64,000 nt of DNA, taken from the NCBI GenBank assembly GCA_023382385.1, contig JAHDVH010000001.1:924616-988615 (forward strand), in the 5' to 3' direction. The position numbers and the translations under genes were made by a program. Numbering within the stretch: the first letter of the stretch is position 1; each line of letters begins with the position of its first letter. The notes below the pieces were generated by a model that saw nothing but the letters and a program-made list of their open reading frames with translations, searched no databases and was not told the DNA's origin. This stretch comes from a bacterium (GTDB taxonomy: Bacteria > Electryoneota > RPQS01). Positions 3,635 to 29,256 of the stretch are shown in pieces.

Positions 3635-3636
3635 AG

Positions 3637-6892: not shown

Positions 6893-6893
6893 G

Positions 6894-9455: not shown

Positions 9456-9481
9456 TTAGTTTTAACGTCTGAGTTTCAGAG

Positions 9482-9883
9482 TTACCAGCGGCGCTGCTTC
9501 TGGTTTCTAACAGACTGTTCTTGAGGTTTTTGCATCAGAATCGCAGGAGCGTTATCAGGCAGTTCGGGTTCACCGCGTTCAGCGGCTTCGAAGAGTCTAA
9601 GTCGTTCATCAGCGGCAACGAAGTTCTTGGGTTCGATCCAGTATCGTCGCAGTCGAAGAATGCCGTTCCATTCGGCAATGCCTTGGTTCAGGAATTTCCT
9701 GAGGGCTTTTCCGACCAGTGTTTGAAAGTGCCTCAGTGGTTCGCCTGTGAGACTTGGCTCGAGGATCCGTGCAACCTCTCCGGGTGCGAACTCCCGGAGA
9801 GGATTATCACGGAGCAGCTTAAGCACGCGGTGATACGTTTTATCCGCGTGAGAGCGGCGGTCAGGAGAAGCGCGCCAGGGCAT
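9482..9883 (-). CDS. Winged-helix-like phage protein
   Basis: A 133-residue protein of unknown role. Residues about 15-95 look like a winged-helix DNA-binding fold: a helix HRVLKLLRDNP, a turn with APGEVARIL, a recognition-type helix LVGKALRKFLNQG and a basic wing ILRLRRYW. The C-terminus is polar with an Arg end. It overlaps the upstream gene by 23 bases. The family is not recognised. A regulatory role near the late-gene boundary is a reasonable guess. Confidence 0.65.
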   Translation of the reverse strand: MPWRASPDRRSHADKTYHRVLKLLRDNPLREFAPGEVARILEPSLTGEPLRHFQTLVGKALRKFLNQGIAEWNGILRLRRYWIEPKNFVAADERLRLFEAAERGEPELPDNAPAILMQKPQEQSVRNQKQRRW

Positions 9884-10178
9884 TGCTGATCAGGGTTTTC
9901 TTTTCGCCAAGGCTTCTGGTGTCTTCGAGCAGGGCCTTCAGGATGCCGCAGAAGTCACGTTTGAGCAGGGTATCGGCGAGTTCGACGGCTTGGTCATCTG
10001 TCAGCGAGTGTTCAGGTTCAGGCGGCTCCTGTGAGGCCAGAATCAGCAGGTCTTCGGCTGCCTGGGCGATGTCGTCGGGGTTGGTGAAGTCAAGCGGCGG
10101 CTCATGGACTTCGGCCATGTACTTTTGCAAGGCTTCCGAGGCCTCATGGTTGAGTAGCTGCGGTATTTCTGCTTTCAT
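9861..10178 (-). CDS. Small acidic phage protein, unknown function
   Basis: This 105-residue protein is acidic and mostly helical, without a recognisable motif (LNHEASEALQKYMAEV near the start, KKTLISNALARFS at the end). Its ATG overlaps the stop of the replication-initiator-like gene as ATGA and has an AAAGGAA ribosome site. It could be a partner of the upstream replication protein, as helicase loaders often are, but nothing in the sequence shows that. Confidence 0.65.
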   Translation of the reverse strand: MKAEIPQLLNHEASEALQKYMAEVHEPPLDFTNPDDIAQAAEDLLILASQEPPEPEHSLTDDQAVELADTLLKRDFCGILKALLEDTRSLGEKKTLISNALARFS

Positions 10179-11086
10179 GTGTGTTCCTTTCGTGCTTTGG
10201 TTTCGGATTGAATTTGCTTGCGGATCCAGCCTACCGGGTTAGCGAGTCCTGGTTGACCGTCCGCGACGTTCAGTCGGCCATCGGTTTTCGTAGCCTGCAG
10301 TTGGTCGAGAATCCAGTCGAGTTCAGCGGGTGAGCCGTGCAGGGACAGGTCGAAGCGAATGCCTGCTCGGTCGTTTTCGGACAGCTTGCCGAGGAGTTGT
10401 TCAGCCCGATCGGTGAAGTCGAGCATGGCTTCGAGCTTCGGGTCGGGTGGGTATCTGCCGTTTGGTTTGGGAATCTCGGACAGGGTTCTTTGAACCGGCG
10501 ATGTCGGTGCCTCGCGCGCACGCGCGCGCTTCGGAGCAACGCTTACAACGCCAGTTGTAAGCGTTTTACTTTCTGAAGCAGAATTACCATTACAATTACC
10601 ATTCTGAAGTTGGGTTCCGCTGGATTCTTCCATAACCGGAAGCACAACGGGGGTTTTGTGCTGTTTGCTTCCGTTGAACTTGCCGGAATCGTCTTTCATT
10701 GGTTCGTAGGCTTCAGCGGTCTTCTGTCCACCCTTGGCTCCGGCAACCCGCCTATTGTGGATAAACTCGGCCAGAGGTTGATGGATAAACCAGTCCTTTA
10801 CTTCACATTCTGGAGTCAAGAATCCGGCTTTTTGAAGTGCCAGAATCATTGCGACCCCCGGTCCCTGATAGTAACAGTAGTCGGCAATAATCTCGGCGTT
10901 TTCTGGGTCGATCACAGGTTCGAACGCGTGATTTGCAGCGACGTACTGAATGAACCTCACGAGGTGCAGATACGCCAATCCTTCGGATAGTCCGAGCGTT
11001 CGTTTGAACAATGTGAACTTCGGATTGTCGTGAATGTCTATCGCGATGTTGAATCGGTCAACCCCGTTCCGCCTGGGCCGTGCCAT
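10175..11086 (-). CDS. Phage replication initiator-like protein (DnaD/O-like N-terminus)
   Basis: The first 130 residues have the pattern of phage replication organisers: a short strand FNIAIDIHDNPKF, then an alternation of helices ending in LQKAGFLTPE and a wing-like IHQPLAEFI. This resembles the N-terminal winged helix of DnaD- and O-type proteins. The middle (140-205) is low complexity and basic, the usual linker. The C-terminal 70 residues contain a conserved-looking WIRKQI, which could contact the helicase. An AGGAGA ribosome site fits ATG 11086. Sequence identity to a known family was not checked, so the name is structural inference plus position. Confidence 0.6.
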   Translation of the reverse strand: MARPRRNGVDRFNIAIDIHDNPKFTLFKRTLGLSEGLAYLHLVRFIQYVAANHAFEPVIDPENAEIIADYCYYQGPGVAMILALQKAGFLTPECEVKDWFIHQPLAEFIHNRRVAGAKGGQKTAEAYEPMKDDSGKFNGSKQHKTPVVLPVMEESSGTQLQNGNCNGNSASESKTLTTGVVSVAPKRARAREAPTSPVQRTLSEIPKPNGRYPPDPKLEAMLDFTDRAEQLLGKLSENDRAGIRFDLSLHGSPAELDWILDQLQATKTDGRLNVADGQPGLANPVGWIRKQIQSETKARKEHT

Positions 11087-11089
11087 TGG

Positions 11090-11371
11090 TTATATCTCCT
11101 GTGCAGCCATGATCCGCACGTAGTCGGTGATAAAAATGTCTTCCCTGACTATCGTATTGCGTGCCTGTTCAATGAATCCGGCGATGAGCGTCAAATCGTC
11201 CTTCCGGTGGCAAGAGATACAGATGAGCGGCGAGAACGTCCGTCCGGAGACGCGCACGTAAACGACGTAACACGGCATGGCGAATGTCAGTTGGTGGCCG
11301 CAGCATTTGCAAGGTTCCGTGGACCGCGCATGTTCCTTGCGAAAACGGCTCGATAACGTGATGTTTGTCAT
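11090..11371 (-). CDS. Small zinc-binding phage protein
   Basis: This 93-residue protein carries CKCCGH near residue 20 and CISCHR near residue 55, two Cys pairs that could hold one zinc ion. The start MTNITLSS at 11371 is chosen because it overlaps the previous stop as ATGA; the longer frame to 11476 would run inside the neighbour. The function is unknown. Small zinc-ribbon proteins of this kind are common in phage early regions and often bind nucleic acid or host enzymes. Confidence 0.65.
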   Translation of the reverse strand: MTNITLSSRFRKEHARSTEPCKCCGHQLTFAMPCYVVYVRVSGRTFSPLICISCHRKDDLTLIAGFIEQARNTIVREDIFITDYVRIMAAQEI

Positions 11372-11829
11372 TGGTAATACACGTAGAGAGGTAACCTGTT
11401 TTGACCATGTGAGAGCTGTGTCAATGCCCAATACACGAATTGAGCGAAGTGTAAGCGATCTGCGATCACAATACATCCGGCTGATCCGGGCACATTTGCG
11501 TCTCGGTGAATCCCGAAGCCAGACCGTGACCGATGACCGTCTGGATGCCGTAGTTCAACAGGATAGATACGGAAGAAGTCTCCTTCTATTCCCTTTGCTT
11601 CCTTCGGTTCAGGAAGCATCGATACCGTGTATCTCTCATAAGGTGGAATCGGCCCTTTACCTGCGTCCCAGAGGTTTGCCTGCGACTGATAGCCCATAAG
11701 TCCGCTCGTTGCAGGTAGAATGATACCGGAACCGTCAGACCCATAGCACTCCACGCGGCCCTGAGCCAAGCGGTCACAGCCCAACGCCTCAAGGTGCATG
11801 TAGAATTCAATTCTCGGAATGCTACTCAT
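11368..11829 (-). CDS. L,D-transpeptidase-like protein, possible cell-wall enzyme
   Basis: The 153-residue protein has a His-spaced-Ser-Gly-Cys arrangement (GIHRDANVPGSAGCIVI near residues 105-122) like the catalytic HxD...SxGC motif of YkuD/L,D-transpeptidase folds. Before it lie short strands and a Pro/Gly-rich PIPPYERY. Such enzymes act on peptidoglycan cross-links; related folds also occur in toxins that act on the cell wall. There is no signal peptide, so an intracellular or phage-lysis-dependent role is possible. It sits oddly among replication genes. It overlaps both neighbours by a few bases. Confidence 0.6.
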   Translation of the reverse strand: MSSIPRIEFYMHLEALGCDRLAQGRVECYGSDGSGIILPATSGLMGYQSQANLWDAGKGPIPPYERYTVSMLPEPKEAKGIEGDFFRIYPVELRHPDGHRSRSGFGIHRDANVPGSAGCIVIADRLHFAQFVYWALTQLSHGQNRLPLYVYYQ

Positions 11830-12280
11830 GGCCTTGAACTTCAGTCGTTACGTCTTCGTCCGGGTGCAAAAGCGGAAGAGCCTCCTGACGTGGATCCACC
11901 TCGTCCGCAGCGCTGCTCATTTCATCCAGCAGAAGCAACCGTGCAGAGTTCAGATAGGCCGCAACTTGTCGGCCCTTCGGCACTCGCTTGATGTGCTTTT
12001 CAATCCGGTCAGTCAGCTCGCACAAATCAGCATAGACCTCGTACGTCGTAAACGCGGATTGTGCCGCGGCGCCGTTGTTCCGCTCTTCAACGCCCTGGTT
12101 GTGCGCTTCAATCTTCTCGCTGTCCGTGCGCCGGTCCATCGTTGGGCCGTACTTCTTATGCACGGTGCAGAGCAAGTGTCCGTTAATCTCTTCAACAGCC
12201 GGCTTGCAGCATCTCTGCGGCGACTGTCCGTTCCTGCTTTTGGTCTCATACTGACAAAGACCGATTGGTGCAGAATTCAT
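11822..12280 (-). CDS. Phage protein with an N-terminal Cys/His cluster, unknown function
   Basis: A 152-residue protein. The first 45 residues have Cys9, a CC pair near 24, and a LLCTVH segment, which could bind zinc. The middle contains a helix (YEVYADLCELTDRIEKHIKR) and the end is acidic (DEVDPRQEALPLLHPDED). A good GGAAGG ribosome site precedes ATG 12280. I do not recognise the family. The gene lies between the RuvC-like resolvase and the L,D-transpeptidase-like gene in the same direction. Confidence 0.65.
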   Translation of the reverse strand: MNSAPIGLCQYETKSRNGQSPQRCCKPAVEEINGHLLCTVHKKYGPTMDRRTDSEKIEAHNQGVEERNNGAAAQSAFTTYEVYADLCELTDRIEKHIKRVPKGRQVAAYLNSARLLLLDEMSSAADEVDPRQEALPLLHPDEDVTTEVQGHE

Positions 12281-12298
12281 GTTCGTTCCTTCCGTGGG

Positions 12299-12715
12299 TT
12301 AGTTGTGCAATGCGTATTCGAGTAATAAAAGCGCATCAGCAAGATTGTCGTTCGTGACCTCACCTGCGCGCTCTTTCATTTCTGACTTATCGGCCCTACC
12401 GTTGCCGGTTGCCCACTTCTTCAGGGTTGCGGCAGGAATCATCTTAACGGGAATGCCGCGACCAGTCGCATAGAGTTCGACCACCGCACCGAATCCATGA
12501 AGCAGCCGCTTACCCTTGCCCATGCCGATCAAGACTTCATGAACAATCAGGTCGCACTTTCCCTGTGCAACCAGAAACCGCAGCAACTTCTCAAGACTTG
12601 CGCCGGGCCTTTGATTCGGCCCACGAGTGCAGTCGATTAGTCCGTAGCGCGGGAAAGGCCCGAAATTCCGAGCGAACGCGCCGTTCATGCCAATATCCAA
12701 GGCCAGTATCTTCAC
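12299..12715 (-). CDS. RuvC-like Holliday junction resolvase
   Basis: The 138-residue protein has the RNase H fold signature of RuvC-type resolvases: ALDIG at the start (Asp7), IVHEV (Glu60), and the C-terminal DNLADALLL with Asp123 and Asp127. These acidic residues would hold two metal ions to cut four-way junctions made during replication or recombination. At 138 residues it is slightly shorter than RuvC (about 170), as phage versions often are. It starts with GTG at 12715, overlapping the previous stop as GTGA. It fits the nearby YqaJ exonuclease recombination system. Confidence 0.85.
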   Translation of the reverse strand: MKILALDIGMNGAFARNFGPFPRYGLIDCTRGPNQRPGASLEKLLRFLVAQGKCDLIVHEVLIGMGKGKRLLHGFGAVVELYATGRGIPVKMIPAATLKKWATGNGRADKSEMKERAGEVTNDNLADALLLLEYALHN

Positions 12716-12936
12716 CGCTTCCTTCGCACTGCTTGAGTTGGCGCCGGAGGTGCGGGCGGTGTAAGCTCATACTCATACGGGGACGAAGGCATGACATACT
12801 CTGTGACACGCCCACTCTTTACATACTCCTGAAGCTGCGGCCACACCTCGCCTTGACCCATGCCGGTCTCCCTGAGCAGGCTGATGAAGTCAATCCTTCC
12901 GTGCTTCTTGATCGTGGACAGAATCAGGAAGCTCAT
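12712..12936 (-). CDS. Small winged-helix protein
   Basis: A 74-residue protein whose first 50 residues look like a winged helix: LSTIKKHGRID, FISLLRETGMGQGEVW and a basic wing GRVTEYVMP. The tail is Pro-rich and ends VRRKR. It probably binds DNA, but its target is unknown. Both ends overlap their neighbours by four bases (ATGA and GTGA), so it is firmly within the operon. Confidence 0.65.
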   Translation of the reverse strand: MSFLILSTIKKHGRIDFISLLRETGMGQGEVWPQLQEYVKSGRVTEYVMPSSPYEYELTPPAPPAPTQAVRRKR

Positions 12937-13325
12937 GCGAACATCGTTGCTTGGCCGTTGGCAGCATAGACAGGAGCTTTCAGTTTCTCTTCAAGGTCTG
13001 ATAGGTGGTTCAGCATATCCTTCGCGCGTTCAGCTTCGGCTTCAGCGTGGGCCTGCATCTTTTTGGCTGCGTGCTCTAAGAGCTTCAGGTCGGCTTCACG
13101 GGCCTTCGGAATCCAATAACCGCGGCGCCCAGGGCCCGACACAATCAGTCGGCCTTGCGCTTTCAGTTCAGTATTGAGAAGATTGATCTCATCCTGAATG
13201 TCCCGAACATGCAACCGCTTTCCTGTCTGCTCGAACAGCAATTCAACAATGTCTTCGCGCGAAAGCGGTGAGTCGCTGTCACGAGATTCCAGATACCGCA
13301 GAATATGTTCGCCAAGCAACGTCAC
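12933..13325 (-). CDS. Winged-helix protein with C-terminal coiled coil
   Basis: This 130-residue protein starts with GTG at 13325. Residues 1-75 form a winged-helix-like unit (ILRYLESRD, DIVELLFEQTG, VRDIQDEINLLNTEL, then a basic wing with GPGRRGYW). Residues 78-115 are a charged Ala/Glu/Lys helix likely to form a coiled coil. It is predicted to bind DNA as a dimer; the target is unknown. The neighbouring 74-residue gene has a similar fold, which may reflect duplication or a paired regulator. Confidence 0.7.
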   Translation of the reverse strand: MTLLGEHILRYLESRDSDSPLSREDIVELLFEQTGKRLHVRDIQDEINLLNTELKAQGRLIVSGPGRRGYWIPKAREADLKLLEHAAKKMQAHAEAEAERAKDMLNHLSDLEEKLKAPVYAANGQATMFA

Positions 13326-13327
13326 GA

Positions 13328-13480
13328 TCAGAGTCGTTCAACAGAATCCAGATAGTGACGAAGCGCACGCTGATTGCGAACCTTGCGCAGATACCAACGA
13401 TTGTAGCGAGGCCTGCGCAAAAGCGCGACGTGAAGGCCGTACAACAACAGCGCGAACCAGATGAGGAGGAATGGATTCAT
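13328..13480 (-). CDS. Small single-span membrane protein
   Basis: A 50-codon frame starts at ATG 13480, one base after the preceding stop, and ends two bases before the next gene, so it fills the gap exactly. Residues 3-21 (PFLLIWFALLLYGLHVALL) form one membrane helix, followed by a very basic tail (RRPRYNRWYLRKVRNQ). It could be a membrane anchor, a small holin or a pinholin. The sequence does not decide which. The exact tiling with neighbours is the main reason to believe it is real. Confidence 0.6.
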   Translation of the reverse strand: MNPFLLIWFALLLYGLHVALLRRPRYNRWYLRKVRNQRALRHYLDSVERL

Positions 13481-15311: not shown

Positions 15312-16262
15312 TCACGCTGCAGCCACTGCGGGCCGCTTCTTTTCTTTGAACAGGAAGCGCCGGCTGCCGGGCTTCGTGACCTTGTACTTCTCAATCAATT
15401 GCCGAGGCAGTTCCGGGTCAGCCAGCAACGCCTTGGTATCCACCGACTCGCTGTCCTTCACGCTCTTCCAAGTCACCGCAAACTCCTCGGATTCGATACC
15501 GTCGTTGTCCGCGATCACTCCCTGCAAGTACGTCATGCAGTCTGTTTCCTGCGCTTCGAGCGTCTTCAGTTCCGCGCGTACCTTCGCGAGTTCCCGCATG
15601 CGTAACGCCGCCACCGAATCGGCCACGACCATTTCGCCGGTCGAGCGCGGATAGCGCGCCTTCAGAAACCTCTGGTATTCCTCTGCCGTGCGCGCTTCTG
15701 GCGGAACCTGCGGAATGACGTGCTCTTTCCAGAAGGTCACCACCGCGTCCTTGATGGCCGCTTCGAGTTCGCGGTCGCGCGGGATTTCGTACTCACGATA
15801 ATCCTGCCCTCCAATTAGCGCCGCGATGTATCCGTCGGTGACGCCTTCCAGCATCAGGTACAACGCGACCTGCGCGATATATGGGAGCGGCGCGTTGTCC
15901 GTGCCGGGTTCGCCCCAGAATCCTGCCATGTGCAGGCCTGCGGTCTTGATCTCAAGGATTGCGCTCTTGGGCTGAACGATGAAATCGGGTGTGCCAAAAA
16001 CTCTCACACCATCAATTTCAGTGCGCAAGTGTCCGGTGGGTAGGAGAGCGAGACTTCGATTGCGGCAAAACTCTTCTGCAATCGGACGCTCCAGTACTCT
16101 TCCCCAACGCATCTTCTCATTGTCCGGTTCTGGCTCTTTCAATCCGAGCTTGTCCATGTACACGTCGAGCGGCGAGCGAAACGGGTTCACACCCAGAATC
16201 GCGCCGATGTCCGAGCCGCCGATACCGGTGCGGCGATAGTTCGGGTCGAGGTGGTTCATCAT
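15312..16262 (-). CDS. YqaJ-type viral recombinase exonuclease
   Basis: The 316-residue protein has the YqaJ/lambda-exonuclease fold motifs in order: GIGGSDIGAILG near residue 14, WGRVLERPIAEEF, the metal-binding GTPDF and LEIKT pair near 90-108, and the helix PYIAQVALYLM. These residues make the nuclease centre that degrades one strand of a DNA end to give ssDNA for annealing. The C-terminal third is a helical extension. Start ATG 16262 has GGAGG directly upstream and overlaps the previous stop as ATGA. With the next gene it forms a two-component recombination system. Confidence 0.9.
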   Translation of the reverse strand: MMNHLDPNYRRTGIGGSDIGAILGVNPFRSPLDVYMDKLGLKEPEPDNEKMRWGRVLERPIAEEFCRNRSLALLPTGHLRTEIDGVRVFGTPDFIVQPKSAILEIKTAGLHMAGFWGEPGTDNAPLPYIAQVALYLMLEGVTDGYIAALIGGQDYREYEIPRDRELEAAIKDAVVTFWKEHVIPQVPPEARTAEEYQRFLKARYPRSTGEMVVADSVAALRMRELAKVRAELKTLEAQETDCMTYLQGVIADNDGIESEEFAVTWKSVKDSESVDTKALLADPELPRQLIEKYKVTKPGSRRFLFKEKKRPAVAAA

Positions 16263-17764: not shown

Positions 17765-17819
17765 CGAACAAAAACAGAAAAAGCGCGAACTACAGGGACT
17801 GCCCTGCAGCTGCGCGCTT
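17765..17819 (-). terminator. Intrinsic terminator after the first early gene
   Basis: Read leftward, arms AAGCGCG and CGCGCTT (17813-17819 and 17781-17787) enclose a smaller hairpin (CAGGG/CCCTG) and are followed by TTTCTGTTTTTG. The upstream arm overlaps the last codons of the first early gene. The site would stop most early transcripts after that gene. Confidence 0.6.
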
Positions 17820-18326
17820 CGCCTTTACTCGATTGATAATCTGCTCTACCGTCTCATGCTCTTCAACGCCGTTGCCGTTCGACTGGGACCGGAGACGCTC
17901 GAGATACTCCAGAACTGACTTCCTCTCGAACCGCACCTCACGCCCCGTGCGTCCACGTCCAGGGACGTAGTACCATTTGAAGAGGTTACGGTTCTTTGAA
18001 GCCCACGCGGGCGAACGTCCGAGTAGGACGGCCAACTCTGGAATTGCGAGGTCAGCCTGCAATGCAAAGTCACGGACTCGCTCCGATTTGACTTCTGCTA
18101 AAGCGGTTCCCTCGTATCGCTGCTTGTCTCTCCACGCTCTGATTTGGGTTGCGCGGAACATGGGAACCGGCGCGAGCCGTGCCCCCTGAACCCAATACAA
18201 ACCAAATTCTTCTGCGTGATCTTCGACCCAATCACGGGAGCGACCGAAGAGACGCATCACGTCCCGCAATGTTAAGTCATGTTCCGACTCAACTTGACTC
18301 AATATGGTTTTTGGGGTATCTTTCAA
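17790..18326 (-). CDS. First early gene: double helix-turn-helix regulator
   Basis: A 178-residue protein with two similar DNA-binding units. The first (about 18-70) has LRDVMRLFGRSRDWVEDHAEE and the second (about 95-145) IPELAVLLGRSPAWASKNRN, each followed by a basic wing ending in a Trp or Tyr, like MerR/excisionase folds. It starts with TTG at 18326, with GGGAGG seven bases upstream. Its mRNA would begin at the strong leftward promoter and a terminator lies just behind it, so it is placed to control the remaining early genes, perhaps as activator, excisionase or antiterminator. Confidence 0.7.
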   Translation of the reverse strand: MKDTPKTILSQVESEHDLTLRDVMRLFGRSRDWVEDHAEEFGLYWVQGARLAPVPMFRATQIRAWRDKQRYEGTALAEVKSERVRDFALQADLAIPELAVLLGRSPAWASKNRNLFKWYYVPGRGRTGREVRFERKSVLEYLERLRSQSNGNGVEEHETVEQIINRVKAKRAAAGQSL

Positions 18327-18481: not shown

Positions 18482-18496
18482 TATAAACGTCTGAAA
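18482..18496 (+). promoter_or_regulatory. Repressor promoter -10 giving a leaderless transcript
   Basis: TATAAA at 18482-18487 lies eight bases before the repressor ATG at 18496. With a normal -10 to +1 distance, transcription would start at or next to the A of the ATG. No ribosome site precedes that ATG. No good -35 is seen, so the promoter may need activation. Confidence 0.5.
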
Positions 18497-18849
18497 TGGA
18501 TAAGGTTAGCGAACTACGGAAGGCGCTGACCCAAAGAGGAGCCAAGGCGCGGATTGTCCGGGAGGTTGGGATTTCCCCCCAAGCACTCGGCAAGATTCAG
18601 CGTGGGGTTGCTGTTCCCACAACTGCCACCCGCCGCTTGATTGCCCAAGGCTTGGGGCTGCCGCAGGACTACTTCCTCGAGCCGGACGCTGAGTCTGAAC
18701 GCACCACCCGCCGCCGAATCGTAGTTGAGCTTGAAATCCCTGACGACTTCCGATTGGATGATGGTCGCCTTGACAAGATTCAGCGTGCGATGGTGGATGC
18801 TGGTACTCATATCGTTTCCGTAATTAAGGACTTAGATAAAACCGACTGA
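18496..18849 (+). CDS. XRE-family phage repressor (short form)
   Basis: The 117-residue protein has a Cro/CI-type helix-turn-helix in its first 60 residues (ARIVREVGISPQALGKIQRG, then PTTATRRLIAQGLGL). The C-terminal part RRRIVVELEIPDDF followed by a helix could be a dimerisation segment. It lacks the self-cleaving peptidase domain of lambda CI, so SOS-driven self-cleavage is not expected. It faces the leftward early promoter across a 169-base gap and most likely keeps it off. There is no ribosome site, in line with a leaderless message. Confidence 0.8.
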   Translation: MDKVSELRKALTQRGAKARIVREVGISPQALGKIQRGVAVPTTATRRLIAQGLGLPQDYFLEPDAESERTTRRRIVVELEIPDDFRLDDGRLDKIQRAMVDAGTHIVSVIKDLDKTD

Positions 18850-19055: not shown

Positions 19056-19481
19056 ATGCTTCGACTGCTGTTCGCACTAATCATGTCCGCAGGTTTATCG
19101 CATGCGCAAGAGATCACGATCCAATCTCATGGTGGCGCGCACTCGTGGAACGTGTACCAAGGTCAGGAGAAGATCAGCGAAGCAAAGCTCTTTTCCTTGG
19201 CCGGTCAACCCGAGATTGCAGAACATGCATCGCATCACAGCAATAACCGCGTACGGAAGTTGGTCAATGGACCAGTGTTTATTGCATGCGGCGCCCTTCT
19301 CGCGATTAGGCCAGGCCAAGAAAGCGGCAACTTCTCCACTCCGTTTGTCGTAGCGGGAGGTGGTGTCGCGGGAGTTGGCGTTTTCTATTTTATTAAGAGA
19401 TTCTTCACTCCCAAGTGCTACGCAACACACGAAAGCGCAATGCAGGCTGCCCAACGATATAACGCCGAACTCAACCGATGA
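19056..19481 (+). CDS. Exported or membrane protein of unknown function
   Basis: The 141-residue protein begins with a clear signal peptide (LLFALIMSAGLSHA, cut likely before QEI). The middle has two hydrophobic spans (PVFIACGALLAI near 75 and PFVVAGGGVAGVGVFYFI near 97), so the mature protein may be anchored in a membrane. The C-terminus CYATHESAMQAAQRYN is polar. Ribosome site AAGGAGG is excellent. It is the first of three coupled genes right of the repressor, a place where lysogeny-expressed genes such as superinfection-exclusion proteins often lie; no homology is recognised. Confidence 0.7.
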   Translation: MLRLLFALIMSAGLSHAQEITIQSHGGAHSWNVYQGQEKISEAKLFSLAGQPEIAEHASHHSNNRVRKLVNGPVFIACGALLAIRPGQESGNFSTPFVVAGGGVAGVGVFYFIKRFFTPKCYATHESAMQAAQRYNAELNR

Positions 19482-19678
19482 AACTCGTGATCAACAAGAA
19501 CGACTTCATACGTCGGATCGCCAAAGACTTGGTGAAGTTGAAAGGATTGTCACCGCAGGAAGCGAGCGAGAAAACAGGCGTTCCGGTTGCGGAAATCCTG
19601 CGCGAGTACGAGGAGCCGTCACCGAAGTACACGACGGTAGCACCAGACGGGAAAGTGACCGAACACGGAAGGGAATAG
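19478..19678 (+). CDS. Small protein of unknown function, second of three
   Basis: A 66-residue protein coupled to the gene before it by an ATGA overlap. Residues 10-45 (FIRRIAKDLVKLKGLSPQEASEKTGVPVAEIL) could fold as a helix-turn-helix, and the tail PKYTTVAPDGKVTEHG is polar. It might bind DNA or be the small partner of its neighbours. No family is recognised. Confidence 0.6.
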   Translation: MKLVINKNDFIRRIAKDLVKLKGLSPQEASEKTGVPVAEILREYEEPSPKYTTVAPDGKVTEHGRE

Positions 19679-20151: not shown

Positions 20152-20251
20152 TATGCCCCTATCCGAATCCGATTCTCGCGCATTCGTTTCACTATGACGC
20201 TTTCTGACCGTCGTATGTAGCCGGTCACACCAACCGAGAAAGGTTGAAAAC

Positions 20252-21895
20252 ATGAATGCGAAGACCACGCGAATCTCACCCGCCATTCAGGCAACTCTGA
20301 AGCGGGTGGGGTTCGCGGTTTTGGTGTTGGGGGAAGTTGTCCACGCCCAGCCTTATGAGCCAATCGTTTTGTACGAAGCATTCGGCGAACCGGGTGAGCA
20401 ACTTGGCGCTTCCGTGTTACGTCACGTAGGAGACCAAGATGGGGATGGGTATGATGATATCTTAGTCAGTGTAGCGGACAGTACTCATTCAAGTGGAACC
20501 ATCCGTTACAACCATCTTCGTTTGATTTACGGCAATGACTTTCCGCCGTACAGAACACTGGATTTTGCCCACACGCTGACGGATACGACGACGGAGTGGA
20601 CATACTGGGCAGGCGCTTCGGGTTACGGACCGCCTTTGGAGATCGTTGATCTCTCTGGTGACGGATGTCCCGATATACTCATTGAATTGCATTTCAGAGA
20701 ATCTATTCTTTATCAGAGGTATCTTTTTTTGGGTGGCCCGGGCGTTTTTGACACGCTCTGGGACTGGCGGTCGGACAACGCGGAACCCCGCAAAGTACTG
20801 GAAACTCTGCCGCATTTTAACGACAATGGCATAGGCTGTTACTTGCGGGGGGGGGTAGCAGCAGAGCAACGCCTGTTGGAGTTCTATCAGGGGCAGTGGC
20901 CTGACCCGCCGTCTTCATCGACCTGGACGCACAGCGTTGCTTGGAATTGGAATTTCTTTTATCCAAACGGAGTCGGTGACATTACGGGGGATGGTTATAC
21001 GGACTTCCTGTACTCTCTCCGCTGGGGGGATGGGACCTACCATGTTCACGGCTGGTTCGGCGGTCCTGACGCGGATTCTATTCCGGACGTCACCTTCATT
21101 GAAGATACGATGGCGGTTCTGAGCACGGCGTGGTCTATCATCGGAGACATGAACGGGGATAGCGTGGATGACCTTGCTGCGCATACCATTGATCATCATG
21201 GCGTACAGCTCCGCGTCTGGTACGGCGGACAGCCGCAGGATTTCAATACGTGGGACGCGACACTCAACGGAGGAGGTGGTCTCGTTCCCTACGCTCATGC
21301 CTGTTTAGGGGATATCAACGGGGATGGATATGAAGACATGGCGTTTACGGATGCCCCAGTTCACAGAGTGTGCGTCTATCTCGGTGCGGATCACGTCGAC
21401 TCAGACATCGCGTATCAAGTCAACTTTCCCAACGAAGACGGGAATGTTCTTGGTGATTACTCCCGATCCGGTGATATTAATGGGGACGGTTTGGATGATT
21501 GGATGTACTCGTCGTTCTATGGTGATACGCTCCAGCGCGGCTACATTAGGATAATCTCCGGCGATCCGCGCTTTGGCCTGCCCGTGGGCGACGAACCGCC
21601 CCCGGTCGTGCGGGAGTTCGTGGTAGGAGATCCCTATCCGAATCCTTTCAACTCGAGTGTGACGATCCCGATAGAAGTCATCGGCAGCCCGGCGGCTGAG
21701 GCGAAGGTTGCGATCTTCGATCTGCTGGGGCGGCAGGTGTTTGCATTTCAAGACCGGAAACTTACACTCGGGCATCACGACCTCGTCTGGCACGGCGAAA
21801 CCACAACCGGCGCTTCTGTCGCAACGGGGGTGTACTTTGTTGCGGTTCAGACCACTAATTTGTCCGTTGTAAAGAAACTAGTGTATCTCAGATAG
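20252..21895 (+). CDS. Secreted FG-GAP repeat protein with T9SS sorting domain
   Basis: The 547-residue protein has a signal peptide (about 1-32, ending VVHA). It then carries six DxDGDGxxD-type calcium sites near residues 61, 132, 242, 298, 353 and 408, as in integrin-like beta-propellers. Residues from about 460 form a type IX sorting domain: PYPNPFNS, a strand KVAIFDLLGRQV and a final GVYFVAV...KKLVYLR. Such proteins cross the outer membrane through the T9SS and become attached to the surface or released. A propeller of this kind usually binds sugars or proteins. It lies within the prophage and just ahead of a second T9SS protein. Ribosome site GAAAGG. Confidence 0.88.
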   Translation: MNAKTTRISPAIQATLKRVGFAVLVLGEVVHAQPYEPIVLYEAFGEPGEQLGASVLRHVGDQDGDGYDDILVSVADSTHSSGTIRYNHLRLIYGNDFPPYRTLDFAHTLTDTTTEWTYWAGASGYGPPLEIVDLSGDGCPDILIELHFRESILYQRYLFLGGPGVFDTLWDWRSDNAEPRKVLETLPHFNDNGIGCYLRGGVAAEQRLLEFYQGQWPDPPSSSTWTHSVAWNWNFFYPNGVGDITGDGYTDFLYSLRWGDGTYHVHGWFGGPDADSIPDVTFIEDTMAVLSTAWSIIGDMNGDSVDDLAAHTIDHHGVQLRVWYGGQPQDFNTWDATLNGGGGLVPYAHACLGDINGDGYEDMAFTDAPVHRVCVYLGADHVDSDIAYQVNFPNEDGNVLGDYSRSGDINGDGLDDWMYSSFYGDTLQRGYIRIISGDPRFGLPVGDEPPPVVREFVVGDPYPNPFNSSVTIPIEVIGSPAAEAKVAIFDLLGRQVFAFQDRKLTLGHHDLVWHGETTTGASVATGVYFVAVQTTNLSVVKKLVYLR

Positions 21896-21904
21896 AGGTG
21901 TCAA

Positions 21905-24900
21905 ATGAAGAAGAGTTATTGTCTGGCCTATGCTGCAATCATCACGGCAGGAGCGCTACTTCTGACTCCAAGCGCATTAGCCAAGTCGAATACTGATTTT
22001 CCGAAAGGCATTATTGGATCACCGTGGTCCGCAATGAGACAGCACTATACAGAGAATTGGAATAATTATCCCAATGAGTCCGCTTGGTATGAGGCTAGAT
22101 ATAACGCTGTTTTCTCAAATGGGACAGGACTCCAGAATGCCATCAGTCACATGGATTCGCTCAATGTGAACTGGTTCTACGGTGACTTCGTCTCAAGCGA
22201 TTTTATCGCAAATCTTGGACGATCGGACTACTTTTTCACACTCGCCGAAGACATCCCTATTGAAGAGTCCAAGTACCTTGGCGCCGAGCGAATGCTAATG
22301 GATATCGGCTGGGAACGACCAGGTGTGAGGCAGTCGGACAACGAGCAACTTGCGTTGCGTACGCTTTGGGCACCTGGCGATACTTTTGATGTTGGCGGCA
22401 CAAGCCGCGTACTAACTGTTGGGTCGCGGGTTCAATTGGATCCACCGCTTCCGGATGGTACGAGCAACGTGATCAAGGCTACAGAGGGAACGCACAACCC
22501 CGGCTGGATACTCTGGCCAGGAGACGCAGAAAAGTACGACTATCCGGAAGACTACTCGCGAGTAGCGCAGCAGGGGACGTCCAAGACACATTGCAGATCC
22601 ACTGGAACAAATCACGATTGGTTTTTCGGCGATCCCGACGAGTCCTTCACGAGCTACTTTTTTGATTTGCTCTGTCAAGTGCCTTCTTGGGTGGACACAT
22701 CAAGCTGCGACACACTCGCAGAACTCTTCATCTTCATGTACTCCTACACTGGTGGCACGACCATGCCACTGGATAATAATGACACAAATCCCGATAGCCT
22801 CAGGACGCGACTCCAGACCGTAGAACTGAATTGGGTAGACTTCTGCTCGATACCGATCCGACTCTGCGATTTTGACAATCCAGGAGAATTTGAGACTGTT
22901 CATAAGCTTGACAGTCTCAAATACTGGTGGCCGAACGGGAGTCATATGGCGATAGGGCTTTACTGGTACGGAATCGAAGATTTTTCAGTAGCCTCTCTGG
23001 ATATTCGAGAAGAGTACTACGACGAACTTTTTGAATTGAACGGAGCGCCTAAACAAAAGTTCAATGAGGTTGTTACTACCCTATCGGGTATTCCTCAGCA
23101 AATGCCCGGCGCAGGGTTTCAGCAAGACGAGCCTTCTTGGAACCAGTGGTTCACGCTTGGAATGTTCAATCGCCACCTACCGAACGGGATTACCATCAAC
23201 GATGATGCGGTCACGGACTCAACCGCAATCTGGACCGTAGATTCGACATATCAGCGATTAACCTCGAACGATCAAGAGTACATGACCGGAGGCTGGGCTC
23301 GTCAAACACCGCATACCGGGACCTACGTTAAGACGAGAGGCTATGACCATTGGTACGACGATGATCCTAATGCGAGAGACGGCTTTGGATTCGGTGCTCG
23401 TCCGCCGGATGCAACGACATCGGAACTGTCAGGATTATCCAATAGCTACGCAGTTGTGGCAAACATTGATACATGTGTATTGAGCCTCCAGGCTTACTGG
23501 GATTTACTGATTGACAACACCGCTTTCTTAGATTGGGCTATCGCGGACGGTCAAATGCCTTCGTTCTGGCGGCGGCGCGCAGACGCAGCCGGATCGCTGC
23601 TTCTACATGCGGAAAGCGCAAGAAATTCTGGAGCGGATTGGGCCGGTTATATAGCGCACAATAAGTGTTGGGAAAACGATTCCTTGAAAATGTATTGGTA
23701 TACTGGTGGTCACCACGATAGTCTGACGATTGCGAACAGATACCATACTGTTCCTGAAATGTGGTGCCAAACGGGACTAAACTTGGCTTATGGTGCAAAG
23801 GGTATTGTCTGGGCGGAACACAATGCATTTGTTTTCGAAGATCGGCCGCTCGCTTGGGAGGCAACATCCGTGCACACAAAAGAACCATGGTTCACCGGTC
23901 TGTCAAAATTGTACGCATCGCTGGACACGGTTGGACCCACTCTAAGAGCGTGTCGATGGGACAATTCATTCTGCACGCGGAGCTTTGAGGACAATTTTGA
24001 TTATCCGTATGCAGGCCCAGGTGGCATTGCCATTGACACGGTTTATACAAAGTACTGGAACGACACGCCGTCGTTGGACTGGGTGAGTGAGGCTGCGAAC
24101 CATACCTATGTCCAGGTCAGTACATTCGAAGCTCCTAACAGCGTGGACGACGAGCTGTATCTATTCTTGGTCAATCGGAGGTGCGAAGAACACGAGCGCC
24201 GTCAAATCTATTTCACCCTTGACATGCCGCAAGCATCGTCGGAATACCGTTGCGAGCTTGCTCGCGGAGATTCAAGCTGGATCGTGATGACAGATGAAGA
24301 GGGCAAGGCCAGTTTCATGGTGCAGCTCCCGCCGGGTGAGTATGAACTCTTCCACGTATCTCCCAACGAAGATTTGATCATTTCCGATACAACATATACG
24401 ATTTATGCGCCTTATCTGCTTAACAGAAACATTCGCATTCGCAACGGCGGGGAGCTAACGATCCTGCCGGATACATCTCTGAGCGCAGGTGATACGGCAC
24501 AAGTTACCTGCTGGCCGGGAAAGGGAGTCTATTTGGACGAAGGGATAGGAAACAAGTTTAATGTTCTTGGCACTGACTCAAATGCCATTAAGTTTCGCGC
24601 ATTAAATGGATTGCATGACGTGGACAATTGGTGGATTGGGATCAGAGCGGCGGACACTACGGCATTAGACACGGTCACGCTACAGAGCACGCTAATAGAA
24701 CACGCACGATTTGGAATTGTTTGTCGAGCGGAAGACTCGAGAGTCAACTTGATGCGCTCCGCAGTTAGACATTGCCTAATAGGTCTTGTTCTTGACGATT
24801 ACGCAACAAGTGATATTCGATACAGTACGTTTTGCTTTAACAGTGCGGCAATTCAATGCGAGAGAGGAGCCTCAATAGATGTCGTTAAAACGTCTATTCT

Positions 24901-27900
24901 GAATTGTGGGTCGGGTGTTAAACTACTCAACAACTGTACTGCCTCACTTAAAGAAGTTAGAGTCGAAAAAAGCCATAACGGTGATGCACGTATCGGAACG
25001 CACGGCATATTCGGCTATAACTCTACCATAATGATGAAGTGTTGCACGATAGACAGTAATTCGTGTGATGGGTTGGAAATGGTTGGTGGCACTCTAATCA
25101 TTGCGGATTTCGACACAAGTGGTGCGCGTTTTGGGGCAAATTGGTTCTTTGAAAACAACCTGTCCGAACTGCGAGTTGACGGGCCGGCAGTCGTTTGGGC
25201 TGACAGCGGCTACAATGTGTTTTTCGAGGATTCAACCTCTGATCCACTATGGGTGCGATTTTCCAACATCTCGATGCCGGCGTACTGGCGCGCGAACTAC
25301 TGGAATGGCTTGACTGCTGACACCACAATTTGGCTCCACATTGGGTCATTGATTGAAGATAGTTTAGGTGTACCATTACTTCCGGAATGTGAACCTGCAT
25401 TTCCATCAGAGCCTGACTACTGCTACCTGCCTCTTCGGGAACCAACATTGACAGATTGCATTATAGAAGCCCTTAAGCAAGAGTTTGTACCTGATCTGTC
25501 GGCGGCTTCTGTATTGTATGAAGACGCACTTGAATCGTCTTCGACGAATTGCAAGAAAACGCCGACTGTTAGTCGCTTGTTACCGGTAAATCATTTCGGG
25601 GGAGTCGATGTTTCAACGACTCTAAGCTACCTGTTTTCGATTGCGGACACTGCTTCCAATGATGAGCTATTGCATGCGGCAACGATCGGAATGGCATTTT
25701 TGCTCGCCGAGACTGACGATAACATAGATAGTGCGCTGACGCTATACCAACAAGTTGTAGAAAGCGCTGGCGAGGACATTTACCAGAGGATTGACGGTCA
25801 AATTGGTTTGCTGATGACAAGCATACAGAAGGCCGCACAAGACACTTGCGATGGTATGACTGATGATGAGTACTTGGAATATCTCGACTCTTTAAACAGA
25901 GTTTTTGGTCAGCGTTTCGTCTGGACGCAGTACGAAATCACGGACAGCGTGGTGATGTATGCTCCGATGCGTGTGGACAGTGTGATCAACGTGCGTGGTG
26001 ACGGCGTTTTGACGATCTTACCGCATCCTGGGTACAAGAATCCCGTCGTTGAGTTTGTTGAGCAAGGGGCGATTAAGGTTTGGGGAACGGATTCGACCAA
26101 AGAGAAGGGTAAGCTGTATGTTTATGGAGACGCAGAGAATCGAGTGAAACTGCATTGGGTGGACTCAACCGGCACCAGGAATATCAAGTCTGAAAGAGGC
26201 CTTGTCAAAATGAGGCATGCGAACTTCTATGGCAACGGCATGGCCAACCAAACCTCTGACGTTGCAGGAAGTGTCCAGGGAAGGAGACGGGCTACCCTGC
26301 AATTGGACTCATGTAACTTTTCATGGTTTGAAGACGGTGTTTTGGCCTGGGCAACCGACAGCACAAGTTACATGCGGGCATGCACGTTAACACACGTAGG
26401 TGGAAGCCAATTTTATTCAGGGTTTGGTGCCGCCCTTACGCTTCTCAAATCCGACAGCTTCAAAGTTGAAGATTGCGTTTTCAGCGAGAGCAACGGGGTA
26501 AGCATTTATCAGGCGCTTGCCTACGGTGTTAAAATTAAGAACTCAATTATTAGTAACGGGGCAACATACGGTATATGGGGAGCGTCCTCAGGAGGCGGTG
26601 ACGCACGTATAGAGTGCTGCACGCTGGTGAGCAATGGCGATACACTCGCAGAGCTGTATACCCTGGGCGTTATCTACGATCTTGTAGGTGGTCATAACAG
26701 TTTTGCCGATAGCTCGGGCCCATTGATTAAGTCAGCGGATCCCTCGTATGTTGATCTTGAGAACGGCGAGAACTACTTTGATGTGTGGGATGACGGCCGC
26801 TACTTGCAATCCGGCGATACGAACAACACCTGGGATATCACGTGGAATACCTGGAGTCCCGCGATGCCGAATGACAGCAACTTCTACGACTATTTGTGGC
26901 CGGCGGCGCCCGCCAATTGGACAGTAGATTCTTCGCTAACCGATTTCTTAACGTGCGGAGAGTCTGCTACATCGTCGATAGGTGGTGGGAGTTGGCTCGT
27001 GTTGGATGACAACTCAGAATCCGGAACTATGTCGACTGGTGGTGACGAGCCGTCAAAAGTCAGCTCATTGAATCAGAAAGAAGCTGCACAAACAACCAAG
27101 GGTGGCGTTGCAAGCAAGGCAAGGGAATATACGCCGAATCATGGCACAAGGAATTCTGCTAACGCTTATGCTACGCGCAAGCAAGCCAAGTTAGAGAAAC
27201 TCGCACACCATAATCGTGAGTTGTTGGCTTGGCGAGACATGCGGTCAACAAGCAAGAGTAACGACAAGGCTCGAGCAGCCATGCAATTTCTAACTGATCA
27301 TCAGGGCTCTGAGTTCACACCGGCTGCACTGGGCATTATTGCTGGTGCCGCAAGCGACGGATCTGCGGTTCTGGCCAGTAAGTATTTGCGCGGTTTTGCA
27401 GAAGAAACTAAAAAGCATTCACTAAGAACCCTCGCACAACGACTCTCATATCAGGCTTTGGCCAATGAGGGCAAACCTGCTGAAGCGTTGTCCGGGCTTG
27501 AGGACATGATGACGGATGCCAAGACACCGTATGACTCGGTGTTGGCAGTACTGGCCGCGATGCAAATCTACTTTGACTACCATCATACAGGAAGATTGCA
27601 GGCCAGACACCCCCAAGTTGTAGTGACAGATCCTTATGACTTGGTTCGTAAGACATTGCTGCTTACCGAACGGCTTGACGATCCAGTGCTTGGCGTATCT
27701 GATAATCAACCTGCACTCCCGACCAAGTATGCTTTGTATCAAAACTACCCAAATCCCTTCAATCCGACGACGGAGATCCGTTTTGACTTACCTGAGGCTA
27801 TCCGCGTCGAACTGAAGGTCTTCAACATCCTCGGTCAGGAGGTTGCGACTCTCGTGGACGAAGTCCGCAATGCCGGTGCTTACCGCGTGCTGTGGGACGG

Positions 27901-28000
27901 CAAGAACTTGGGTGGTCAGGTTACGGCTTCTGGCGTCTACGTCTATCAGCTCAAGACGCCGACCTTCACAGATGCGAAGAAGATGGTGCTGATTAGGTAA
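21905..28000 (+). CDS. Giant secreted multidomain beta-helix protein with T9SS sorting domain
   Basis: The 2031-residue protein starts with a signal peptide (ending ALA near residue 26). Residues to about 820 form a long globular part with AYGAKGIVWAEHNAF (near 640) and an ending GEYELFHV, which resembles a TIM-barrel glycosidase with a small beta domain; this is inference. Right-handed beta-helix segments follow (about 840-1110 and 1380-1620), separated by a helical insert with TPR-like LTLYQQVVESAGEDIYQRI. A charged helical stretch (about 1740-1900) precedes the sorting domain at 1941-2031 (YQNYPNPFNP, FNILGQEVATL, GVYVYQL, KKMVLIR). It starts nine bases after the FG-GAP gene. By eye its base use is more AT-rich than the phage genes. 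It may bind or cleave surface polysaccharide. Confidence 0.85.
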   Translation: MKKSYCLAYAAIITAGALLLTPSALAKSNTDFPKGIIGSPWSAMRQHYTENWNNYPNESAWYEARYNAVFSNGTGLQNAISHMDSLNVNWFYGDFVSSDFIANLGRSDYFFTLAEDIPIEESKYLGAERMLMDIGWERPGVRQSDNEQLALRTLWAPGDTFDVGGTSRVLTVGSRVQLDPPLPDGTSNVIKATEGTHNPGWILWPGDAEKYDYPEDYSRVAQQGTSKTHCRSTGTNHDWFFGDPDESFTSYFFDLLCQVPSWVDTSSCDTLAELFIFMYSYTGGTTMPLDNNDTNPDSLRTRLQTVELNWVDFCSIPIRLCDFDNPGEFETVHKLDSLKYWWPNGSHMAIGLYWYGIEDFSVASLDIREEYYDELFELNGAPKQKFNEVVTTLSGIPQQMPGAGFQQDEPSWNQWFTLGMFNRHLPNGITINDDAVTDSTAIWTVDSTYQRLTSNDQEYMTGGWARQTPHTGTYVKTRGYDHWYDDDPNARDGFGFGARPPDATTSELSGLSNSYAVVANIDTCVLSLQAYWDLLIDNTAFLDWAIADGQMPSFWRRRADAAGSLLLHAESARNSGADWAGYIAHNKCWENDSLKMYWYTGGHHDSLTIANRYHTVPEMWCQTGLNLAYGAKGIVWAEHNAFVFEDRPLAWEATSVHTKEPWFTGLSKLYASLDTVGPTLRACRWDNSFCTRSFEDNFDYPYAGPGGIAIDTVYTKYWNDTPSLDWVSEAANHTYVQVSTFEAPNSVDDELYLFLVNRRCEEHERRQIYFTLDMPQASSEYRCELARGDSSWIVMTDEEGKASFMVQLPPGEYELFHVSPNEDLIISDTTYTIYAPYLLNRNIRIRNGGELTILPDTSLSAGDTAQVTCWPGKGVYLDEGIGNKFNVLGTDSNAIKFRALNGLHDVDNWWIGIRAADTTALDTVTLQSTLIEHARFGIVCRAEDSRVNLMRSAVRHCLIGLVLDDYATSDIRYSTFCFNSAAIQCERGASIDVVKTSILNCGSGVKLLNNCTASLKEVRVEKSHNGDARIGTHGIFGYNSTIMMKCCTIDSNSCDGLEMVGGTLIIADFDTSGARFGANWFFENNLSELRVDGPAVVWADSGYNVFFEDSTSDPLWVRFSNISMPAYWRANYWNGLTADTTIWLHIGSLIEDSLGVPLLPECEPAFPSEPDYCYLPLREPTLTDCIIEALKQEFVPDLSAASVLYEDALESSSTNCKKTPTVSRLLPVNHFGGVDVSTTLSYLFSIADTASNDELLHAATIGMAFLLAETDDNIDSALTLYQQVVESAGEDIYQRIDGQIGLLMTSIQKAAQDTCDGMTDDEYLEYLDSLNRVFGQRFVWTQYEITDSVVMYAPMRVDSVINVRGDGVLTILPHPGYKNPVVEFVEQGAIKVWGTDSTKEKGKLYVYGDAENRVKLHWVDSTGTRNIKSERGLVKMRHANFYGNGMANQTSDVAGSVQGRRRATLQLDSCNFSWFEDGVLAWATDSTSYMRACTLTHVGGSQFYSGFGAALTLLKSDSFKVEDCVFSESNGVSIYQALAYGVKIKNSIISNGATYGIWGASSGGGDARIECCTLVSNGDTLAELYTLGVIYDLVGGHNSFADSSGPLIKSADPSYVDLENGENYFDVWDDGRYLQSGDTNNTWDITWNTWSPAMPNDSNFYDYLWPAAPANWTVDSSLTDFLTCGESATSSIGGGSWLVLDDNSESGTMSTGGDEPSKVSSLNQKEAAQTTKGGVASKAREYTPNHGTRNSANAYATRKQAKLEKLAHHNRELLAWRDMRSTSKSNDKARAAMQFLTDHQGSEFTPAALGIIAGAASDGSAVLASKYLRGFAEETKKHSLRTLAQRLSYQALANEGKPAEALSGLEDMMTDAKTPYDSVLAVLAAMQIYFDYHHTGRLQARHPQVVVTDPYDLVRKTLLLTERLDDPVLGVSDNQPALPTKYALYQNYPNPFNPTTEIRFDLPEAIRVELKVFNILGQEVATLVDEVRNAGAYRVLWDGKNLGGQVTASGVYVYQLKTPTFTDAKKMVLIR

Positions 28001-28024
28001 TATGAATACCGTTGCATTTTAAGC

Positions 28025-29158
28025 ATGTCCTCCCTCTATAAGCGCAAACTAAAGAATCGCACAGTCTGGTACGTAAATCTGAAGCTTGCCAACGGCAAGC
28101 GCAAGAGCATTAACACCGGCTGTGAAACGAAGACGGCGGCCAAAGTTGTAGCCGCCGAGTTTGAACGCAAGATATTGCTGGGTCTTGATCCGACGAAGCC
28201 AACGCCGCCAAAGCAGAATGTGATCGCGCTATTCGAGCGGTTCATGGAAGAGTCAAAACGCGACTGGTCTCCAGACACGATAGACCAGTACGAAGATACG
28301 CTTGAAACCCTGAGGACCGTCGTTGGTGAAATCCCGCTTACGGAACTCTCAAGACGTCACCGCAACGCGATTGTGGATTATCTGACAGAGCGCGGTGCCG
28401 TTCACAAGAGTAGAACAGGAAATGTGAAGCGCGTCCGCGAAATCTCCGGCCACACAATAAACCGGAACATCCGCAACGTCACGCGCTTTCTGAACTGGTG
28501 TATTGAAGAAGAAGTTGTTCGCGGTTGGCAACCGCCGAGGTTCAAGCAAATAGCGGTGGTAGAGGAACCGAAGGAGAGTTTCACACCGGACGAGATTAGC
28601 CGGATATTGGACGCCGCGGCGGACTTCACGCTGAACGGCTACCCGATTCAGGCCTACTTTGCGTTTCAGGCGTTCAGCGGGTTTCGGCGCAACGAAGGCC
28701 GCCACCTGCAATGGGAAGACATTGACTTCGAACGACAGACGATACTGGTACCAGCAGGCAAGGTCACGAAGCGGATTGGCCGCCGCGAAGTCGTACCACT
28801 CACCGCACCGCTTGAACTAATCCTGCAATCGCTGCCCAGACGCGCCACAGGCCCCGTCTTCCCCGGTGTTAGCGAGAAGATTACCCACGTCTTCAAAAAG
28901 GTCTGCGAGGCCGCTGGCGTGGACTACAAGCCGCTGCACAGGCTACGGGCGACGTTCACAACTCAGCTATCCGATCTGCGCCTTCCGCCGATGGCCGTAC
29001 AGAAAATCGTCCGCCACAAGAATCTGAACACAACCTACGGGCACTACTATCTTCCGGAAGCAAACGCCCTGCGCGAAGCCGCGAATGAAGCCCTGAAAGA
29101 CTCGCCATTTGCTACGGCAATTCTACGAATATTTGATAAAGATGCGGTTGACAAGTAG
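28025..29158 (+). CDS. int: Tyrosine-type phage integrase
   Basis: The 377-residue protein has an N-terminal arm-binding domain (basic, KRKLKNRTVWYV), a core-binding SAM-like domain (about 65-165), and a catalytic domain with Arg221 or 222 (GFRRNE), Lys246 or 249, His305-xx-Arg308 (LHRLRATF), His331 (VRHKNLN) and the nucleophile Tyr338 (TTYGH). It would join phage and host DNA at the tRNA-Glu site that begins 11 bases after its stop codon. It starts 24 bases after the giant cargo gene, so it may be co-transcribed with it. Confidence 0.95.
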   Translation: MSSLYKRKLKNRTVWYVNLKLANGKRKSINTGCETKTAAKVVAAEFERKILLGLDPTKPTPPKQNVIALFERFMEESKRDWSPDTIDQYEDTLETLRTVVGEIPLTELSRRHRNAIVDYLTERGAVHKSRTGNVKRVREISGHTINRNIRNVTRFLNWCIEEEVVRGWQPPRFKQIAVVEEPKESFTPDEISRILDAAADFTLNGYPIQAYFAFQAFSGFRRNEGRHLQWEDIDFERQTILVPAGKVTKRIGRREVVPLTAPLELILQSLPRRATGPVFPGVSEKITHVFKKVCEAAGVDYKPLHRLRATFTTQLSDLRLPPMAVQKIVRHKNLNTTYGHYYLPEANALREAANEALKDSPFATAILRIFDKDAVDK

Positions 29159-29169: not shown

Positions 29170-29210
29170 CTCTCACGCCGGTAACACGGGTTCGAATCCC
29201 GTACGCGCTA
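29170..29210 (+). other. Attachment site: 3' half of tRNA-Glu(CTC)
   Basis: The sequence gives an anticodon loop CTCTCAC (anticodon CTC), the 3' anticodon strand GCCGG, a TAAC variable loop, the T-arm ACGGG-TTCGAAT-CCCGT and acceptor strand ACGCGCT with discriminator A. The 5' side before C29170 cannot complete the anticodon stem, so only the 3' half is host-derived here. This is the right attachment site. The intact tRNA should lie at the left end of the prophage. Confidence 0.88.
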
Positions 29211-29220
29211 CTAAAAATCA

Positions 29221-29256
29221 ACGGGTTAGCCAATGCGGCTAACCCGTTCTTTTGTC
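29221..29256 (+). terminator. Intrinsic terminator after the attachment site
   Basis: Eleven-base arms ACGGGTTAGCC and GGCTAACCCGT enclose AATGC and are followed by TCTTTTG. It probably ended the original tRNA-Glu transcript and may also stop the integrase unit. Confidence 0.85.

Follow-up and report, generated by a model that had tools for sequence, protein, structure and literature searches.

Can a temperate phage carry genes for proteins that leave the cell through the type IX secretion system (T9SS) of its host? The question is raised by two adjacent genes, one for an FG-GAP protein and one for a giant beta-helix protein, in the stretch of 64,000 nucleotides analysed here (the window, C1:924616-988615), which belongs to a bacterial genome of 2.9 Mb in 7 contigs (G000) and holds most of a 42.5-kb prophage, called element 1. 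We consider it probable, at roughly 0.7, that the two genes form a cassette of host-T9SS clients and that this cassette occupies a slot for exchangeable cargo, situated between repressor and integrase in the lysogeny region of a temperate phage. What is observed is that both genes lie within the attachment (att) sites of the prophage, that both sorting domains are intact, that the host encodes SprA and PorV, that the genes are accessory, and that the element ends are shared with another element of the same genome.

Two sorting-domain proteins encoded side by side

The FG-GAP gene (window 20252-21895, + strand) is an open reading frame (ORF) for an integrin-alpha-like beta-propeller protein of 547 residues, and the beta-helix ORF (21905-28000, + strand) encodes a protein of 2031 residues; both are intact over 7.7 kb. 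Pfam profiles find FG-GAP repeats in the former and Beta_helix in the latter. Each protein ends in a type IX sorting domain, as the earlier note on this DNA had read from the letters: against the TIGR04183 curated cutoff of 23 bits, the FG-GAP protein scores 35.0 bits (residues 462-544, window 21635-21883) and the beta-helix protein 29.5 bits (residues 1948-2028, window 27746-27988), and the two chains close with KKLVYLR and KKMVLIR, respectively. Sec-type signal peptides, judged by eye, stand at the other end, reading ...VGFAVLVLGEVVHA before QP in the FG-GAP protein and ...AGALLLTPSALA before KS in the beta-helix protein. The order on the + strand is repressor-like helix-turn-helix (HTH) gene, FG-GAP gene, beta-helix gene and tyrosine integrase gene; the two cargo genes lie 9 bp apart, and the integrase follows the beta-helix gene after 24 bp.

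The host has the machinery that such proteins would need. SprA is encoded in a single frame at C2:117351-123344 (714 bits) and several PorV family matches lie over the cutoff; on these two components the host possesses a T9SS translocon.

Comparison of the FG-GAP profile points to integrin-alpha propellers and a secreted esterase. Residues 27-860 of the beta-helix protein (window 21983-24500) make up an N-terminal domain with an acidic DE[P/W] motif, which is kept in 8 of the 8 aligned N-terminal domains of giant proteins from host and viral sources (two of them viral). Acidic motifs of this sort occur in some glycoside hydrolases, and the DE[P/W] motif could be an enzyme site. One relative in the beta-helix family matches the GH20 domain weakly; searches with the N-terminal domain of the window protein found no match to any known family, nor did the whole protein match a catalytic family, and the predicted structure of the domain (pLDDT, the predicted local distance difference test, of 27) is unusable. 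The GC content of the beta-helix gene is 0.497 vs 0.559 in the phage structural genes.

Both genes lie inside an att-bounded prophage

A perfect direct repeat of 42 bp, made up of the 3' end of a tRNA-Glu(CTC) gene and its copy, bounds element 1. The left copy, attL, is at C1:911324-911365, 13.3 kb to the left of the window start, and a repeat match places attR at window 29170-29211 (C1:953785-953826, + strand). The 42-mer has exactly two exact copies in the 104 kb examined, and the next best match has 18 mismatches. A second complete att site between 20.2 and 28 kb, which the earlier note had named as the finding that would speak against it, is thereby ruled out. Because the repeat pair encloses both genes and no third copy exists, the FG-GAP and beta-helix genes belong to the 42.5-kb prophage, between repressor and integrase and inside the attachment boundaries as had been proposed.

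The unoccupied form of the site is seen in a congeneric genome, G001, where an intact tRNA-Glu gene is followed directly by the same terminator that in the window has been displaced to the right of attR (29212-29248, + strand, identified by comparison with G001), and where the tRNA gene lies near homologues of the genes to the left of the element 1 insertion. With two repeat copies and an empty site in a relative, the pair has the att-site membership of lysogenic-conversion genes.

A sister prophage of element 1 is integrated in G001 at tRNA-Asp (53-bp repeat). It is 77% identical to element 1 in the terminase, 81% in the capsid, 68% in the portal protein and 61% in the integrase, and no sorting-domain gene is found among its genes; what lies between its repressor and its integrase is a gene for a restriction-like protein with an HSDR_N domain. 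Because this prophage does without any sorting-domain gene, the cargo pair appears, by comparison, dispensable for the phage. The empty site and the cargo-free sister prophage, a comparison with and without the element such as the earlier note had suggested, support the reading of the genes as prophage cargo.

A cargo slot shared with other elements of the same genome

Element 2 (C1:462178-473291) is an 11.1-kb element bounded by a 47-bp tRNA-Arg repeat. Its DNA is about 90% identical to that of element 1 at both ends and in the repressor; the shared parts are the left end (90%), the HTH genes, the repressor, a gene for a 66-residue protein, the cargo leader and the start of the integrase. It has no counterpart of the element 1 structural genes, and its cargo includes two different sorting-domain genes, the last of which stops 24 bp before the integrase.

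Conserved DNA flanks the different cargo on both sides. The leader (window 20153-20323, + strand) comprises upstream DNA and the signal-peptide codons of the FG-GAP gene. It has 87% identity to its counterpart in element 2, in which the ORF ends after about 40 codons; this truncated remnant is apparently the front of a gene that has been replaced. The 3' joint (window 27926-28192, + strand) runs from the last 25 sorting-domain codons through the spacer into the first integrase codons and is 93% identical to element 2. Since leader and sorting-domain/integrase joint are conserved between elements with different cargo, the cargo was most likely swapped by recombination between conserved ends, the sorting-domain DNA itself being one of them. 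The integrases are mosaic in turn, with about 93% DNA identity at the gene start (window 28025-28192; C1:472139-472306) and a diverged remainder; overall protein identity is 36-38%, in line with the different tRNA targets of the two elements. Within one genome, a precise, swappable cargo slot is thus common to a complete prophage and to a small integrative element.

Element 3 (C5:157666-173712; 16.0 kb, 57-bp tRNA-Asp repeat) encodes an integrase, a sigma-54 activator, a ThiS-like protein, a ThiF-like protein and a sorting-domain pair, and 26 nt of the cargo leader are identical in it. Three of the 5 integrase matches in the host genome lie in elements with sorting-domain pairs, and the other two have no sorting-domain gene nearby.

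Homologous pairs in other genomes and viral contigs

In G008, a genome of another genus in the same family, an integrase element of 18.3 kb is inserted at tRNA-Gly; it has a DnaB-like gene, and its FG-GAP and beta-helix genes stand in the same order. The beta-helix protein encoded there is 33% identical to the window protein over 1447 residues. In the gene lists of this element and of elements 2 and 3, no homologue of the element 1 terminase, portal or capsid is seen, and all three thus have an integrase and regulators without structural genes, the make-up of phage satellites. Two further FG-GAP/beta-helix pairs lie outside the element in G008; no att repeat was found at the tmRNA that adjoins one of them.

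Pairs are found in viral contigs as well. In IMG/VR, 60 stretches came up in a motif scan, and the sorting domain was confirmed in 51 of the 61 viral loci examined. On two contigs (L155 and L175) a full-length FG-GAP homologue (E about 1e-50) is followed by a giant sorting-domain protein, and these pairs adjoin a phage endolysin; L175 also carries a terminase. That viral contigs of other lineages also carry the pair suggests an accessory module which phages can reuse. The beta-helix protein alone as query had no match in viral contigs, and neither cargo protein matched any of 50,697 GenBank phage records in a tblastn search. A search of the genome contigs with five aligned integrases returned two loci, both found already.

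Several related arrangements were also seen. In G011 a pair at L117 (G011:C16, 9847-16832) without visible phage genes or integrase adjoins an OPT transporter, and the beta-helix copy there has no sorting domain; OPT homologues lie near tRNA-Glu in G000 and G001 too. FG-GAP genes alternate with truncated N-terminal beta-helix fragments in G001 (L109, G001:C6:26001-46000, 2128-13365) and G004 (L115, G004:C194), and the array in G001 closes with a beta-helix C-terminal part that is 52% identical to the window protein; these arrays look like a cassette reservoir or decay. At L113 in G003 (G003:C187), three sorting-domain genes, one of them for a 2257-residue beta-helix protein, are interleaved with pieces of phage genes for capsid and head morphogenesis that are homologous to those of element 1; the sorting-domain genes are possibly cargo inserted into, or remaining from, a decayed prophage. 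In G022, of another family, two related sorting-domain genes lie directly upstream of an integrase beside tRNA-Arg (L065, G022:C9, 11480-16989); this locus was not counted as an integrated element because no att repeat was found in 36 kb.

Defence genes in equivalent slots

Genes of other kinds occupy the corresponding position elsewhere. Upstream of related integrases lie a Type I methyltransferase, indicating Type I restriction-modification (RM), in G002 and a Druantia DruE helicase on the IMG/VR contig L078. In G005 the contig with the repressor (L055, G005:C494, 674-2407) has DarTG and a CRISPR array, and the contig with the integrase (L054, G005:C148, 1171-5101) has Cas1, Cas9 and an array with the same repeat; from this shared repeat we infer that the two contigs join, in which case the prophage slot there would hold DarTG and a type II CRISPR-Cas system. 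The region between repressor and integrase looks like a hotspot for defence genes and cargo.

A further conserved order is a ThiS-like ubiquitin-like protein (in G000 and G008), a protein of 365-379 residues, a ThiF/E1-like protein and then a sorting-domain pair; it is found at G000:C5:160967-172127 (L014/L016), G001:C10 (L110) and G008:C10 (L112). The E1-like protein matches the E1-E2 models of PADLOC, and a divergent sigma-54 activator at the G000 locus resembles RtcR-type regulators. Operon and pair are possibly one antiviral cassette with surface clients.

What the cassette may do

The orientation of the two genes fits the direction from repressor to integrase; they would be read along with the other genes of the lysogeny region, and lysogens would make both proteins. 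These would pass through Sec, be exported by the host T9SS and be anchored or released at the cell surface, where they might serve the lysogen, and so the phage, by altering adhesion or glycan interactions or by excluding competing phages.

Of the roles that such proteins could have, an ecological trait unrelated to phages, such as particle adhesion or the binding or cleavage of polysaccharides, would make this an ordinary case of lysogenic conversion; we rate it at a little under even odds. The likeness of the FG-GAP protein to integrin-alpha propellers and a secreted esterase, the invariant DE[P/W] motif and the weak GH20 match in the family all point this way, as does the T9SS cargo of Cryophage, in which an endoglucanase, a GH39 protein and a PA14 protein bear T9SS type A sorting domains (Bellas et al. 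2020, PMC7468147); the lack of a catalytic family match in the window beta-helix protein and its unusable structure model argue against it. Somewhat unlikely, in our view, is that the pair is a surface module for superinfection exclusion, in which propeller and beta-helix proteins coat or modify the receptor and block the adsorption of competing phages. Such a role is suggested by the Type I RM, DruE, DarTG with Cas1/Cas9 and HSDR_N genes in equivalent slots (G002, L078, G005 and G001, respectively), by the ThiF/E1-like operon, of a kind listed among candidate defence systems, that the sorting-domain pair follows in three genomes, and by the viral genes beside the pair in two IMG/VR contigs. 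These, however, amount to guilt by association, FG-GAP/beta-helix pairs also occur without visible mobile genes, and neither cargo protein matches a PADLOC-DB model, which leaves both outside the known anti-phage systems. The more specific proposal that an FG-GAP propeller and a DE[P/W] giant beta-helix protein make up a two-protein, T9SS-exported system that excludes competing phages at the cell surface, carried in a defence slot by phages and small integrative elements of T9SS-bearing bacteria, is more doubtful still.

The remaining alternative is that a phage captured chromosomal host genes by chance, with benefit to neither phage nor host. With 127 TIGR04183 matches in its 2.9 Mb (an estimated 5% or so of its genes), the host offers many genes for such neutral hitchhiking, and the low GC content of the beta-helix gene is consistent with a recent capture. 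About 1.9 sorting domains would be expected by chance in 42.5 kb, so that the two observed are no enrichment and, the host genome having so many, are not statistically surprising. Against chance capture speak an integrase element of another genus, in which homologous genes are paired in the same order, and two IMG/VR contigs where such a pair stands beside viral genes, together with the maintenance of an intact 7.7-kb coding region and the comparable cargo that fills the slot of the related element 2 in the same genome; we regard it as improbable.

Some results also weigh against a dedicated phage cargo slot. The three elements of G000 (69.7 kb) together hold 6 sorting-domain genes vs 3.05 expected, which is not significant (P = 0.089), and a promoter scan found promoter-like sites no more frequent than in shuffled sequence. 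Homologous pairs are also present where no integrase is seen (G011, contig C6 of G001 and two copies in G008), so the pair module is not phage-specific, and the viral status of the IMG/VR contigs is a database label plus a few hallmark genes. The earlier note had held that its proposal would fail if all relatives kept the same genes on the chromosome without phage genes; this is not so, since homologous pairs elsewhere stand in mobile or viral contexts, although some copies do lie without visible phage genes. What supports an exchangeable slot with T9SS clients is not counts but the mapped att sites, the leader and joint that elements have in common, the pair carried by the G008 element and the repeated finding of pairs in viral contigs.

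Other genes of element 1

The remainder of the prophage is that of a complete phage, with early and structural genes oriented opposite to the repressor, cargo and integrase genes. On the + strand, the repressor-like HTH protein (117 residues, 18496-18849) is 85% identical in element 2 and 50% in the sister prophage; it is followed by a secreted-looking protein of 141 residues (19056-19481), in whose place element 2 also has a gene for 141 residues, and by the conserved 66-residue protein of the lysogeny region (19478-19678) that element 2 shares. The tyrosine integrase (377 residues, 28025-29158, + strand) has the canonical catalytic residues R221, K246, H305, R308, H331 and Y341. On the - strand, the early region opens with a divergent HTH gene (17790-18326) that also occurs in element 2, in the G001 prophage and in the G008 element; the same strand carries genes for a RecE-like exonuclease (15312-16262), the terminase large subunit (6894-8441), the portal protein (5453-6910), a head morphogenesis protein (2771-3634) and a fused head protease and major head protein (255-2831). 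Element 1 also encodes neck and tape-measure proteins. Among GenBank phages, its integrase and capsid have distant relatives only, all below 60% identity.

Comparison with known systems

By their putative signal peptides and their C-terminal YPNPFN...KKxV domains above the cutoff, the two proteins resemble ordinary T9SS type A cargo (TIGR04183 / PF18962); the difference is that they are encoded in a prophage and not in the host's own repertoire. Like moron (lysogenic-conversion) genes, theirs are accessory, lie inside att sites, are absent from a sister prophage and run in the direction of the repressor. Familiar lysogenic-conversion genes are not known to depend on T9SS, whereas export of the present cargo would need the host T9SS, and any benefit would therefore be tied to T9SS-bearing hosts. 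In a genome that abounds in T9SS clients, lysogenic conversion would in this way come to include type IX export, and phages may thereby reshape or shield the surface of their host cells; their use of the host surface-export machine becomes testable.

Elements 2 and 3 and the G008 element are comparable to phage satellites and islands like the phage-inducible chromosomal islands (PICI) in being integrated at tRNA genes and in having an integrase and small regulators with no capsid or terminase seen. Element 2 could also have arisen by deletion from a phage like element 1.

The closest precedent is Cryophage, beyond which we found no report of phage-borne T9SS clients in the open literature searched. 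In both cases sorting-domain cargo is encoded by a phage and varies between phage variants, and export by the host machine is presumed. Given this precedent, the 127 domains in the host and the 51 of 61 viral loci, the prophage cargo would be a less unusual variety of lysogenic conversion than the earlier note had supposed. Cryophage is a metagenomic phage pan-genome, whereas the cargo described here is an FG-GAP/beta-helix pair in the repressor-integrase slot of an att-bounded prophage, has Pfam domains that exclude the endoglucanase, GH39 and PA14 families, and has counterparts in elements without phage structural genes. What is new is thus an integrated prophage with mapped att sites, a cargo slot in its lysogeny region, a conserved gene pair, and small tRNA-integrated elements with like cargo.

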